36,170 bases of DNA. Origin: a bacterium (GTDB lineage Bacteria > Chloroflexota > Dormibacteria > Aeolococcales > Bog-877). The translations under genes were made by a program, and so were the position numbers. Positions 28,563 to 33,588 of this stretch are shown here, in pieces; the first letter of the stretch is position 1; every line of letters starts with the position of its first letter. The notes under the pieces are model-generated. The model was given only the letters and a program-made list of their open reading frames with translations. It did no database searches and was not told where the DNA came from. The stretch spans positions 1 to 36,170 of the forward strand of contig JAJZJU010000013.1 of the NCBI GenBank assembly GCA_021809895.1, in the 5' to 3' direction.

Positions 28563-29542
28563 CAGTTCAGCCGCCTGACCGCTTCCACTATCTGCTGACT
28601 GGCGGGGATCAGCGAGCGTTCGAGCTCGCGCGAATATGGCAGCGGCACATCGCGCATGGCCACTCGCTGCACCGGCGCGTCTAGGTCGTCAAAGCAACGA
28701 TCCTGCATTTCGGCGAGCAGGCTGGCGCCGAACCCTCCGGTCCGCCAATCCTCTCCGCAGAGAACCAGCCGGTGGGTGCGCTGCACCGAGGCCACCATGG
28801 TGGGATAGTCGAGCGGCCGCAGGGTGCGCAGGTCGATCACCTCACAGGAGATCCCATCCTCCCGCTCCAGCACCTCGGCGGCGTGCATCGCCTGCAGCAA
28901 CATCCTGGAGTACCCGATCAGGGTGACGTCACTGCCCTCGCGGGCGACTCGGGCTACACCGATGGGTACCTCCAGACCACCGTCCGGCTCGGCGTCCACC
29001 TCACCTCTGGTGCTGTAGAGCAGGCTGTGCTCGATGAAGATGACCGGGTCGGGGTCGCGAATGGAGGCCAACAGCAGCCCCTTCGCATCAGCCGGAGTGG
29101 CCGGCATCACCACCTTGAGACCGGGCACGGAGGCGAACCAACCCTCGAAGGTCTGGGAGTGGGTGGGTCCGAGCTGGCCGAACCCTGACACGGTCCTCAC
29201 CACCAGGGGTATCGAGAACTGGCCCCCGAACATGTAGTGGAATTTGGCCGCGCTGTTGACTATCTGGTCGAGCGCCAGCAGGGCGAAGTTGACGGTCATG
29301 AGCTCTGCCACCGGGATCAGGCCGCCCATGGCGGCCCCCACCGCGAAACCCACGATGCCGGCTTCGGCGATCGGAGTCTCCATCACCCGCTGGGGCCCGA
29401 ACTCCTCGACCAGGCCCTTGGTGACCGCGTACGAGCCACCGTAGCCGGTGATGCTCTCCCCCATGAGGATCACCCTTTCGTCGCGCTGCATCTCCTCGCG
29501 CATGGCACTGCGCACGGCGTCACGATAGGTTAGCTCAGCCAC
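28562..29542 (-). CDS. 2-oxoacid dehydrogenase E1 beta subunit
   Basis: 'ALREEM..DERVILMGE', 'GPQRVMETPIAEAGIVGFAVGAAMGG', transketolase C-domain. Confidence 0.95.
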   Translation of the reverse strand: MAELTYRDAVRSAMREEMQRDERVILMGESITGYGGSYAVTKGLVEEFGPQRVMETPIAEAGIVGFAVGAAMGGLIPVAELMTVNFALLALDQIVNSAAKFHYMFGGQFSIPLVVRTVSGFGQLGPTHSQTFEGWFASVPGLKVVMPATPADAKGLLLASIRDPDPVIFIEHSLLYSTRGEVDAEPDGGLEVPIGVARVAREGSDVTLIGYSRMLLQAMHAAEVLEREDGISCEVIDLRTLRPLDYPTMVASVQRTHRLVLCGEDWRTGGFGASLLAEMQDRCFDDLDAPVQRVAMRDVPLPYSRELERSLIPASQQIVEAVRRLN

Positions 29543-29544
29543 CC

Positions 29545-30657
29545 TCAGGCTCCCCGCCGGGCGCCGCTGGCGGCCGCCGCTGGAGCCGGCTCGGAGGTAG
29601 GCTCGCGCTGCCCCCCGTCAAGCGGCTTGGCGTAGATCCACTTGTCGATGGTGGCCGGGTCCGGCCAGGGAGATTCGTCGGCAAACCGGACCGCCTCGAG
29701 CATCTCCGCCTCCGCATCCTCAGTCACCTGTGCCAACTCCTGCTCACTGGAGACGCGGTGCTCCACCAGGAACCGACCGAACCGGGGGATGGGATCCAAC
29801 TCGCGCCAGCGGCGCACCTCCTCCTTGTCACGATAGAGCTCGGGGTCCGCCATGGAGTGCCCCCGAAAGCGGTAGGTGAGCGCCTCCACGAAGAATGGGC
29901 CCTTGCCGCTCCGGCAGTGAGCGGCCGCCTTCTGCACCGCCTCATACACCGAAAGCACGTCCATCCCGTCGCACTGCACGGACGGCATGGTGTATCCCTC
30001 AGCCTTGATGATCATGTCCTTGACCGGCGACTCCTCGGCCAGGGTGGCGCCCATCCCGTAGAGATTGTTCTCGCAGATGAAGACCACCGGCAGGTTCCAA
30101 AGGGCGGCCATGTTGAGCCCCTCGTGGAAGATCCCATTGCCGGTCGCACCGTCACCGAAGAAGTCCAGAACCACCTGCTCCTTCTGCTGGTACTGCATGG
30201 CGTAGGCCATGCCCGCGCCGATGGGGATATGGGAGCCCACGATCGCGTACCCGCCCCAGAAATTACGCGAAGCATCGGCCAGGTGCATCGAGCCGCCCCG
30301 GCCGTGGCAGAGTCCAGTTTCGCGCCCGAACAGTTCCGCCATGCAGGCCTTGGGATCGCAGCCTCGAGCCAGTGCATAACCATGGTCACGGTAGTGGCCG
30401 AGCACATGGTCATCGGGTCGCGCCGCGGCCAGGGCGCCAACCGCCACCGCCTCCTCACCTATATATAGGTGCAGGAAGCCACCCACCTTGGCCTGCGCGT
30501 AGGCCTCGGCGGCGTGGTCCTCGAAGTGCCTGATGAGCACCATCTTGCGGTAGATTTCGCGGCACTCCTGGGCGGTCAATCCCAAGGGAAGGTCGGCCCC
30601 GCTGCGCCGGCCGGGCCGGCTGCTGCGGGGCCTTGGTGCTCTCGAGTTTGTGGGCAT
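29545..30657 (-). CDS. 2-oxoacid dehydrogenase E1 alpha subunit
   Basis: ThDP motif 'DFFGDGATGNGIFHEGLNMAALWNLPVVFICENN', 'YRFRGHSMADP'. Confidence 0.95.
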   Translation of the reverse strand: MPTNSRAPRPRSSRPGRRSGADLPLGLTAQECREIYRKMVLIRHFEDHAAEAYAQAKVGGFLHLYIGEEAVAVGALAAARPDDHVLGHYRDHGYALARGCDPKACMAELFGRETGLCHGRGGSMHLADASRNFWGGYAIVGSHIPIGAGMAYAMQYQQKEQVVLDFFGDGATGNGIFHEGLNMAALWNLPVVFICENNLYGMGATLAEESPVKDMIIKAEGYTMPSVQCDGMDVLSVYEAVQKAAAHCRSGKGPFFVEALTYRFRGHSMADPELYRDKEEVRRWRELDPIPRFGRFLVEHRVSSEQELAQVTEDAEAEMLEAVRFADESPWPDPATIDKWIYAKPLDGGQREPTSEPAPAAAASGARRGA

Positions 30658-30842
30658 CAGCCTAGTTTACAGAGGCCGCCCCCGCACCCCGGTGGCGCCC
30701 CAGGTGCGCGCAAGCACATCCCTCCCGGTATTTACCTTTGGTTGGTCCGGACAACGGCATGAATTTGCCTGGGGTCAACCCGTGAAATCACGCAGGGGCG
30801 ATTTCGCCACGCTGGAATTGGCTGGATTCGGGGCAAAATTGT

Positions 30843-30872
30843 TTGGCAGTTTCGCGCTGTCTGGGATATAAT
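30843..30872 (+). promoter_or_regulatory. Sigma70-like promoter
   Basis: TTGGCA (30843-30848), 18-bp spacer, TATAAT (30867-30872). Confidence 0.75.
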
Positions 30873-30879
30873 CTGTGCC

Positions 30880-31032
30880 AGCGCAGCCGCGGCTCGCGGA
30901 GCTGCCAGGTGATGGGGAGCACCGGGTAACCCGGTTGCGCCCGGCGCCGTTGTAACAGGGTCTGCCCGAGCTCCAAAGGGCAGGCGGAATAGTGAGTGGC
31001 GAGACAGTTCACGCGCCTGAGGAACCCCCAAG
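30880..31032 (+). ncRNA. Candidate structured 5' leader RNA upstream of unknown gene
   Basis: Hairpins at 30883-30905, 30922-30934 and 30960-30985; possible closing helix 30906-30911/31014-31019 next to the downstream SD. Confidence 0.5.
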
Positions 31033-31440
31033 ATGATGACAACCGAGCGAGACAACCGCTACCGCGTCACCCGCCGCGACATCCTGCGTCGCCAGCACGA
31101 GGGCCTGGCCAGGACCAGGACGCTGCGCAAGTACCGGTCCCACCTGGAGCACCTCGACAGGGTGCTGGCGGACCTGGAGGACGCCCGAATCCGTGAGCGC
31201 CGCGTGGTCCCGCCGGCAATCACAGAGGAGTTGCGCCAGGCCGAGGTGTCGCGGGTCGACCCGGACCTCGCCTCGGTGGTCGCCTCCAGTCGTCCCAGCA
31301 TCGATCGGGTTCAGGACGCGGTCTTCGACGCTCAGGGCAGGATCATGGTCGAGGTCAGCCGACTGCTGGGCCAGCCAGACTGGGTCACCATCGAGGCCGA
31401 GGAGGGCGAGGCCCTGGAGATGGAGACCTCCCGTCACTGA
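31033..31440 (+). CDS. Hypothetical protein, 135 aa, charged and helical
   Basis: ATG after GAGGAA SD-like sequence, downstream of a consensus-like promoter. No domain recognised. Confidence 0.65.
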   Translation: MMTTERDNRYRVTRRDILRRQHEGLARTRTLRKYRSHLEHLDRVLADLEDARIRERRVVPPAITEELRQAEVSRVDPDLASVVASSRPSIDRVQDAVFDAQGRIMVEVSRLLGQPDWVTIEAEEGEALEMETSRH

Positions 31441-32114
31441 TCGGGAGCCGACACCTCCGCTCCAACTGAGCCACCGGCTCTCACGGCAACCTCCTGGCCC
31501 AGCGCGTAGGTCCTTGCCAGCTCGATGATCCGAGCCTGATCGCGACGCGCGCGGCGGCTCCTCGAGGTCTCCGTGTGACGTGGACGCACCGGCATGTGGG
31601 CCCGGTCCGCCAGCCGCTCCGCTTCGCGGGCTTGACGGGTCTGATTCAGCCGCTCCCATTCAAGGACTGCCGCCTCCACCAAAGCCACCTTGGCATCCGG
31701 GCTGACCTCAGTGTCACTCTCCGAGAGCTGGGTCTCCAGCCGCGACATGCGGGACGCCGGCAGCCGAGTGCGGGCGGCGGCCAGCACCTGGTCGATGTGA
31801 GCAGTGCGCTGACGCTCCTGCCTGGTGGCACTCTCGCGCTGCACCTCGTGGGCACGGGCCTCGCGGAGTTCGCGCTGCGCCTCGGTCAGGAGTGCCCGAT
31901 AGTGGTCGGCCAGGTCGGTGTGCTCGCCTTGGGCAGCCATGCCCGCCAGCTCTACGCCTCGCTGCAACAGCCGCTCCACCGCATCGTCGGCGCCAGCCTG
32001 CTGTAGCTGGGGCAGTATGAAGACGCCGAACTTGCGGTCTATCTCCACGTACACCTGACGAACTTCGGGTGGAAGTTCGGAGTGCTCGGGAACCGTGAGT
32101 GGACTACGGGACAT
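31434..32114 (-). CDS. Hypothetical protein rich in charged helices
   Basis: Start MSRSPLT preceded by GGAGGT. Heptad-like Glu/Arg/Leu composition. No domain recognised. Confidence 0.6.
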   Translation of the reverse strand: MSRSPLTVPEHSELPPEVRQVYVEIDRKFGVFILPQLQQAGADDAVERLLQRGVELAGMAAQGEHTDLADHYRALLTEAQRELREARAHEVQRESATRQERQRTAHIDQVLAAARTRLPASRMSRLETQLSESDTEVSPDAKVALVEAAVLEWERLNQTRQAREAERLADRAHMPVRPRHTETSRSRRARRDQARIIELARTYALGQEVAVRAGGSVGAEVSAPDQ

Positions 32115-32141
32115 GCGAAATTGGACCTCCAAGGGCTCGGT

Positions 32142-32840
32142 TCAAGAAATCGATGGTGGCCGGTCCACCGGGGTGGCGCTGCGACCCATCTTGGCGAAGA
32201 GACAGCCAACTCCGGCCGCCACCCCCCCCGGGGCCCGAAAGACAGAGGTCCCCGCAACAAGCACGGTGGCCCCCGCGTTGACGCACGCGGCAGCATTGCT
32301 CGCGTCGACTCCTCCGTCGACTTCGAGCTCGCAGGACAGGCCGCGGGTGTCGATCATGCTGCGCAACTCGACAAGCTTAGCGATCGCACCCCTCTGGAAC
32401 TCCTGGCCACCAAAGCCGGGGTCGACTGACATCACCAACGCGAGGTCGATCTCATCCAGGATTTGGGTGAGGAAGTCCGCCGGGGTCGCCGGGTTGATCC
32501 CGACCCCGGGACGCGCTCCCAGCCGCCGGATCGCGCTCACGGTGCGGTGGAGCTGGCGGCAGGCTTCGTAATGGACGGTGATCAGGCCCACCCCCGCCGC
32601 CACGAAGGCGGGGATGATCGAATCCGGCTCCTCGACCATCAGGTGCGCCTCCAGCAGGAGCCCACAGCTGCGGCCGCAGGCGGCTGCAACCTCAGGCCCC
32701 ATGGTGAGGTTGGGAACGAAGTGGTTGTCCATCACGTCGATGTGAATCCGGTCCGCGCCGGCCCGCTCGCAGGCGGCGACATCCTCGCCCAGCTTGGCGA
32801 AGTCGGCAGCCAGGATGGAAGGGGCGAGCTCAGCCGGCAT
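32142..32840 (-). CDS. rpe: Ribulose-phosphate 3-epimerase
   Basis: APSILAADFAKLGED, HIDVMDNHFVPNLTMGP, LVMSVDPGFGGQEF, ELEVDGGV. Confidence 0.95.
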   Translation of the reverse strand: MPAELAPSILAADFAKLGEDVAACERAGADRIHIDVMDNHFVPNLTMGPEVAAACGRSCGLLLEAHLMVEEPDSIIPAFVAAGVGLITVHYEACRQLHRTVSAIRRLGARPGVGINPATPADFLTQILDEIDLALVMSVDPGFGGQEFQRGAIAKLVELRSMIDTRGLSCELEVDGGVDASNAAACVNAGATVLVAGTSVFRAPGGVAAGVGCLFAKMGRSATPVDRPPSIS

Positions 32841-33588
32841 GGGGTTTCGACAGCAGGCCGGCCGCCGCCCGGTCACACCAGACCTCACATGCGAGGGACC
32901 TGCGGGCGACCAGTTGGGCCGGCAGCCGCACCGGAACGTAGCCTCCCTCCAGCACCTCGGCCAGGGTAGCGGCCTTCTCCTGCCCCTCCAGCAGGAAGCG
33001 CACGAGGGCCGCCGAGCGAAGCAGGCTCGGCCCCAGGGTCAGTCGCCGCTGCCCGGAGGGGTGGGTGGTGGCGAGCGCCAACCGGTCTTCCGGATACTCC
33101 CGCCCGGGGAACAGGGAGGCCGTGTGCCCATCGGCTCCCATCCCCAGCCCGACCCAGTCAATCTGGAGCCGTCCCTCCACGGTTGGAACCACACCAAGGA
33201 GCCTGGCCTCGAAGCGGGCGACGACGGTCTCGGGCCCCATCCCCTCCTCCACCTCCCAGCCGACCAGCAGCGGGGTGGGGCCGGTAAGCCTGGAGACCAG
33301 CGCCGCTCGGATCATCCCCTCGTTAGAGTCAGGGTCGGTGACCGGGACCATCCTCTCGTCCCCCGGAATCAGCACGACCCGGGCCCAGTCGATGCCCGGC
33401 AGGTCCGCCATGATCTCCAGGGCGGCCCTGGGAGTCGTTCCTCCGGGAAGCGCCACCGCCGCCTCCCCGCGCGCGGTGACCGCGCGCTGGATCTCGGCCG
33501 CCATGGTGTGGGCGGCGAACTCGGCCAGCTCACGGGGCCCATCCAGCGCGCGCACCAGAGGGTCGTGGAGGTCGAGCTCGATCGTCAA
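32830..33588 (-). CDS. pgl: 6-phosphogluconolactonase (DevB/SOL type)
   Basis: VALPGGTTPRAALEIM, IPGDERMVPVTDPDSNEGMIRAAL, GLGMGADGHTASLFPG. Start uncertain (TTG 33588 or 33681). Confidence 0.9.
   Translation of the reverse strand: MTIELDLHDPLVRALDGPRELAEFAAHTMAAEIQRAVTARGEAAVALPGGTTPRAALEIMADLPGIDWARVVLIPGDERMVPVTDPDSNEGMIRAALVSRLTGPTPLLVGWEVEEGMGPETVVARFEARLLGVVPTVEGRLQIDWVGLGMGADGHTASLFPGREYPEDRLALATTHPSGQRRLTLGPSLLRSAALVRFLLEGQEKAATLAEVLEGGYVPVRLPAQLVARRSLACEVWCDRAAAGLLSKPHAG

Follow-up and report, generated by a model that had tools for sequence, protein, structure and literature searches.

A conserved, structured, single-copy leader RNA upstream of an uncharacterised gene in one family of Candidatus Dormiibacterota

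What a leader of 160 nt is doing between a promoter and a 135-codon gene without a recognised family is the question raised by one locus in the stretch of DNA analysed here (36,170 nt, hereafter the window), which is contained in a 2.5-Mb draft genome whose named relatives are metagenome-assembled genomes (MAGs) of Candidatus Dormiibacterota. A sequence-only reading of the locus had put forward a novel riboswitch or cis-regulatory RNA; comparison with 110 Candidatus Dormiibacterota MAGs of the same class, including a family of 18 genomes in five genera (g1–g5), bears out a structured cis-regulatory leader through its conservation, its pairing-preserving changes and the lack of an Rfam match, and does not uphold the riboswitch or either of the two switches then envisaged. 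The leader of the locus contains a structured RNA element that is conserved, single copy and linked to one gene, and that this is a new control element, no known RNA family being matched, is believable.

The 135-codon gene stands alone, flanked by pdhA (divergent) and by a convergent gene with rpe and pgl beyond it, and the order pdhA, 135-codon gene, convergent gene, rpe is constant in all family members with long enough contigs. The gene is real, as judged from third codon positions that are 57–64% identical against 86–98% for first and second positions (90–98% for the second), within and between genera; an N-terminal extension was rejected on account of an in-frame TGA five codons 5′ of the ATG in this genome. 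An all-helical fold is predicted with confidence for the product (pLDDT 90), with a pI of 11.4 and 16 Arg in the N-terminal 61 residues and a pI of 4.3 in the remainder. Searches of Pfam, NCBIfam, PDB sequences and folds gave no significant match that identifies the protein, and no fold or sequence match indicates RNA binding. The convergent gene (window 31434–32132, minus strand), whose 232-aa product is without a Pfam match above cut-off, adjoins the 135-aa gene throughout the family as a conserved neighbour.

The promoter proposed in the sequence-only reading stands as the sole sigma-70-like site found in 29000–33000, with transcription predicted to start at about 30878–30881 and a −10 hexamer (TATAAT or TATACT) kept at a constant 45–47 nt from the RNA core in 15 of 15 homologous loci. 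The −35 hexamer is good in g1 and g3 and weak in g5; in the g5 promoters (L032–L038) TATACT is kept and a recognisable −35 hexamer is absent, a difference from g1 and g3 that suggests another mode of promoter activation.

Table 1. Features of the leader and its gene (window coordinates).
Feature	Position	Strand	Evidence
Sigma-70-like promoter TTGGCA-N18-TATAAT	30843–30872	+	11/12 matches, 0.3 expected
Conserved leader RNA core	30881–30952	+	Covariance model R1: 15/110 class genomes, one strong match each
S1 5′ arm GCGCAGCC, candidate pairing with 30933–30940	30881–30888	+	Covariation tests
Hairpin P1: 30883–30887 with 30901–30905, small inner stem	30883–30905	+	13–15 of 15 sequences per pair
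Hairpin P2: outer stem 30908–30916 with 30940–30948, apical stem, GUAA-type loop 30926–30929	30908–30948	+	Pairing-preserving changes
Possible short uORF GUG-AUG-GGG-AGC-ACC-GGG-UAA	30909–30929	+	Frame in 15/15; variation not codon-like
Invariant 18-mer GGGGAGCACCGGGTAACC, candidate binding site	30914–30931	+	Identical in 15/15
S1 3′ arm GGUUGCGC; would give a pseudoknot with the P2 outer stem	30933–30940	+	93.3% of S1 cells paired
Hairpin P3 of linker	30960–30985	+	Variable sequence; not clearly formed in all genera; linker identity 40–60%
135-aa all-helical uncharacterised protein; very basic N-terminal part, acidic C-terminal part	31033–31440	+	Codon-position conservation, predicted fold

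The leader's first ~75 nt form the conserved core (~72 nt folded), which every one of the 15 genomes in three genera of the family (g1, g3 and g5) carries in exactly one copy, always 5′ of the 135-codon gene; these 15 fairly closely related sequences make up the leader alignment. Further copies elsewhere were sought with the covariance model, which returned chance-level matches only (best E 0.1). No match was found outside the family in a sample of 400 genomes of the phylum, nor was the core detected in leaders of family f3, in front of the gene's distant homologues from other families of the class, or in g2 and g4, two genera that nevertheless retain the gene with its neighbours. Upstream of the gene in two g4 loci (L087 and L088), there are short shared strings (GATTGG, GGGTACGG, GGTAAC and CCGTTAG), a hint of a diverged element beyond the recognition of the covariance model.

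Conservation has a sharp edge, beginning directly 3′ of the −10 hexamer, with unconserved DNA 5′ of it: identity is 32–42% upstream of the promoter (unalignable), 57–86% in P1, 81–91% in P2, more than at the gene's third codon positions, and 40–60% in the linker. The 18-mer GGGGAGCACCGGGTAACC occurs once per genome in the 15, and none of the remaining 95 genomes in the class contains it with up to one mismatch allowed. In leader L041 this strand is unchanged though its apical partner strand is altered, which points to recognition of the sequence rather than pairing alone. A scan of the window and nine related loci against Rfam 15 gave no match at gathering or permissive thresholds, in agreement with the earlier failure to recognise a known riboswitch core; the highest-scoring weak match, to ClpQY_promoter (19.4 bits, cut-off 42), was not repeated in relatives. 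Coding in the leader, on either strand, was considered and rejected, the P2 3′ arm varying at seven successive positions (30940–30946) and the linker carrying indels.

Minimum free energy (MFE) stability of the single sequence is not above chance (z −0.48), and folding of single sequences is uninformative because the DNA is very GC-rich; the case for structure is comparative. RNAalifold, unaided, recovers both P1 and P2 from the alignment, and 95.7% of cells are paired against 32–57% in slid controls. The first hairpin of the sequence-only reading holds where it had been placed, with L041 having a different strong hairpin in place of P1; the second (CCGGG-UAA-CCCGG, 30922–30934) was correctly located, but it is the tip of the longer P2 stem and not a separate hairpin. 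In the P2 outer stem 96.7% of cells are paired, and substitution events mapped on a tree of the gene keep pairing in 18 of 19 cases without L041 (p ~0.001) and in 19 of 27 with it (p ~0.02), two figures that belong together, as L041 was dropped only after it had been seen as a misfit; the null preserves the transition or transversion class of each event. The check on homologues that had been proposed finds the core conserved in 15 genomes, with pairing-preserving changes in P2. The many G–U pairs in the stem speak for an RNA rather than a DNA dyad. In most g5 leaders the MFE structure is a fold other than P2.

An alternative helix, S1, absent from the earlier reading, was first seen in the minimum-energy folds of g5 and was thus spotted before being tested. 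Alone it has three pairs in which both sides have changed, these changes being confined to L029, L040 and L041; a single such pair is left without L041, in which S1 is broken at four of eight pairs. Taken with the P2 outer stem, 95.0% of cells are paired and four pairs are changed on both sides, a count equalled by 1 of 500 shuffles, and the covariation score of 0.240 compares with at most 0.117 in slid versions. Among 1,770 possible 8-bp stems, S1 and the P2 outer stem rank top, slid copies of themselves aside; across 600 column-shuffled alignments, one equally paired stem arises in 16%, one in which two or more pairs have changed on both sides in 3%, and two different stems in 2%. S1 is mutually exclusive with P1, with which it competes for the same arm, and with the P2 tip. 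A pseudoknot that S1 and the P2 outer stem would form, with the invariant strand as its loop, is moderately supported by these alignments; nested P1 and P2 are predicted to be more stable, and S1 may be an alternative state, or wrong.

Downstream of the core, the third hairpin of the sequence-only reading (P3) exists in this genome and is variable among relatives. Neither proposed switch is conserved: the AGCUCC:GGAGCU pairing occurs only in this genome, and CAGGUG:CGCCUG is found here and in one sister, with a partial form in another. In most g5 leaders (L032–L038) the P3 loop GCCACGC is fully complementary to GCGUGGC ~35 nt downstream, a complementarity absent in g1 and g3. No intrinsic terminator or attenuator was found on this strand within 29000–33000 and no conserved partner of the ribosome-binding site (RBS), the Shine–Dalgarno (SD) sequence having an unpaired probability of 0.3–0.8; a conserved regulatory output of the leader was likewise not found.

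The best explanation, held tentatively, is a gene-specific cis-regulatory leader whose invariant strand is bound by a trans-acting factor. A ~72-nt structured RNA at the extreme 5′ end of a single-gene mRNA, with P1 at its 5′ terminus followed by the long P2, would present the invariant strand GGGGAGCACCGGGUAACC; S1, by swapping partners with P1 and the P2 tip, may close a pseudoknot around this strand, which would most likely be the recognition site of the factor. The binder, plausibly the gene's own product, the first 61 residues of which are strongly basic, would set how well this single mRNA is translated or how stable it is. The comparisons show the conservation, the single copy, the constant gene partner and the pairing-preserving changes; a trans-acting binder, autoregulation, a switch, a regulatory output and a direction of control are inferred. 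Such a binder is favoured over a riboswitch because the distribution is narrow and gene-specific, and an autoregulatory protein-bound leader fits at least as well because the searches turned up neither a terminator on this strand nor a conserved RBS pairing. Autoregulatory protein-binding leaders, for example those of ribosomal proteins, are single copy, gene-specific and often lineage-restricted, with a hairpin or pseudoknot bearing an invariant recognition strand; the window leader shares the single copy, the one gene (the same in 15 of 15 genomes), the lineage restriction and the invariant strand, but unlike in those systems the downstream protein is without a recognised family and its RNA binding is only putative. 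In a riboswitch, a small molecule or ion would bind the invariant loop in the S1/P2 pseudoknot, stabilising it against P1 and the P2 tip and so altering translation, which is unlikely: the 18-mer retained in L041, the competition of S1 and P1 for one arm and the double-sided changes in S1 and outer P2 accord with it, whereas the association with a single gene and with no transporter or metabolic gene, in three genera only, the want of a terminator or conserved SD pairing in the regions searched and the broken S1 of L041 do not. Of the marks of a riboswitch, the leader has a conserved structured core; an expression platform, as a terminator on this strand or conserved RBS sequestration, was not found. 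An extension of the riboswitch reading to a new pseudoknotted class confined to one Dormiibacterota family, with the GGGGAGCACCGGGUAACC loop as ligand pocket and S1 versus P1 as the switch, is decidedly unlikely. Comparative genomics has yielded orphan riboswitch candidates, with no ligand known (PMC7266159, PMC2864571), that are likewise conserved structured 5′ leaders before uncharacterised genes; the window leader differs in its much narrower distribution, its single gene and the lack of a visible expression platform.

That the terminal hairpins merely shield the mRNA from 5′-end-dependent decay, with no regulator, is unlikely; P1 does start within a few nucleotides of the predicted transcription start and L041 swaps it for another strong hairpin, but identity of the 18-mer beyond the needs of pairing is left unexplained. 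Control of the gene through translation of a short leader peptide (GUG-NNN-GGG-AGC-ACC-GGG-UAA) is very unlikely, although GUG and UAA are in frame in 15 of 15 leaders and GGAG lies seven nt 5′ of the GUG in most g1 and g5 leaders, since conservation does not follow a codon pattern: the last four sense codons are invariant at every third position, codon 2 varies at positions 1–2, the SD is absent in g3, the amino-acid composition is not telling, and the P2 3′ arm, outside the uORF, varies while pairing is preserved. The Corynebacterium ilvB-II motif (PMC10272879), likewise a conserved leader, came from an ncRNA search and proved to be a uORF; there the peptide composition explains regulation, whereas the window leader is conserved at the nucleotide level and has no such composition. 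A regulator site just 3′ of the promoter, conserved as DNA, would fit the position of the conserved sequence near the promoter and the partial dyads GGTG..CACC and GTAACC.GGTTGC, but it is very unlikely in view of a stem kept via G–U pairs, the long-range complementarity and the loss of the GTAACC.GGTTGC dyad in L041.

The core is a structured RNA, compact and open to experiment, from a phylum represented here by MAGs alone, fixed to one uncharacterised protein conserved across the family, and identifying the binder of the invariant strand would offer a first functional way into the 135-aa protein. If the element does have two states, with conserved helices in competition, it would make a useful model for RNA control within a restricted lineage. 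Other families of the class have distant homologues of the protein (~30% identity), which lack the leader type of the window; at four such loci in another family (L045, L047, L048 and L050), the upstream gene and the homologue are separated by a conserved hairpin, GGGCGG...CCGCCC, with a T-rich run after it, which is unlike the window leader and could be a terminator or attenuator.
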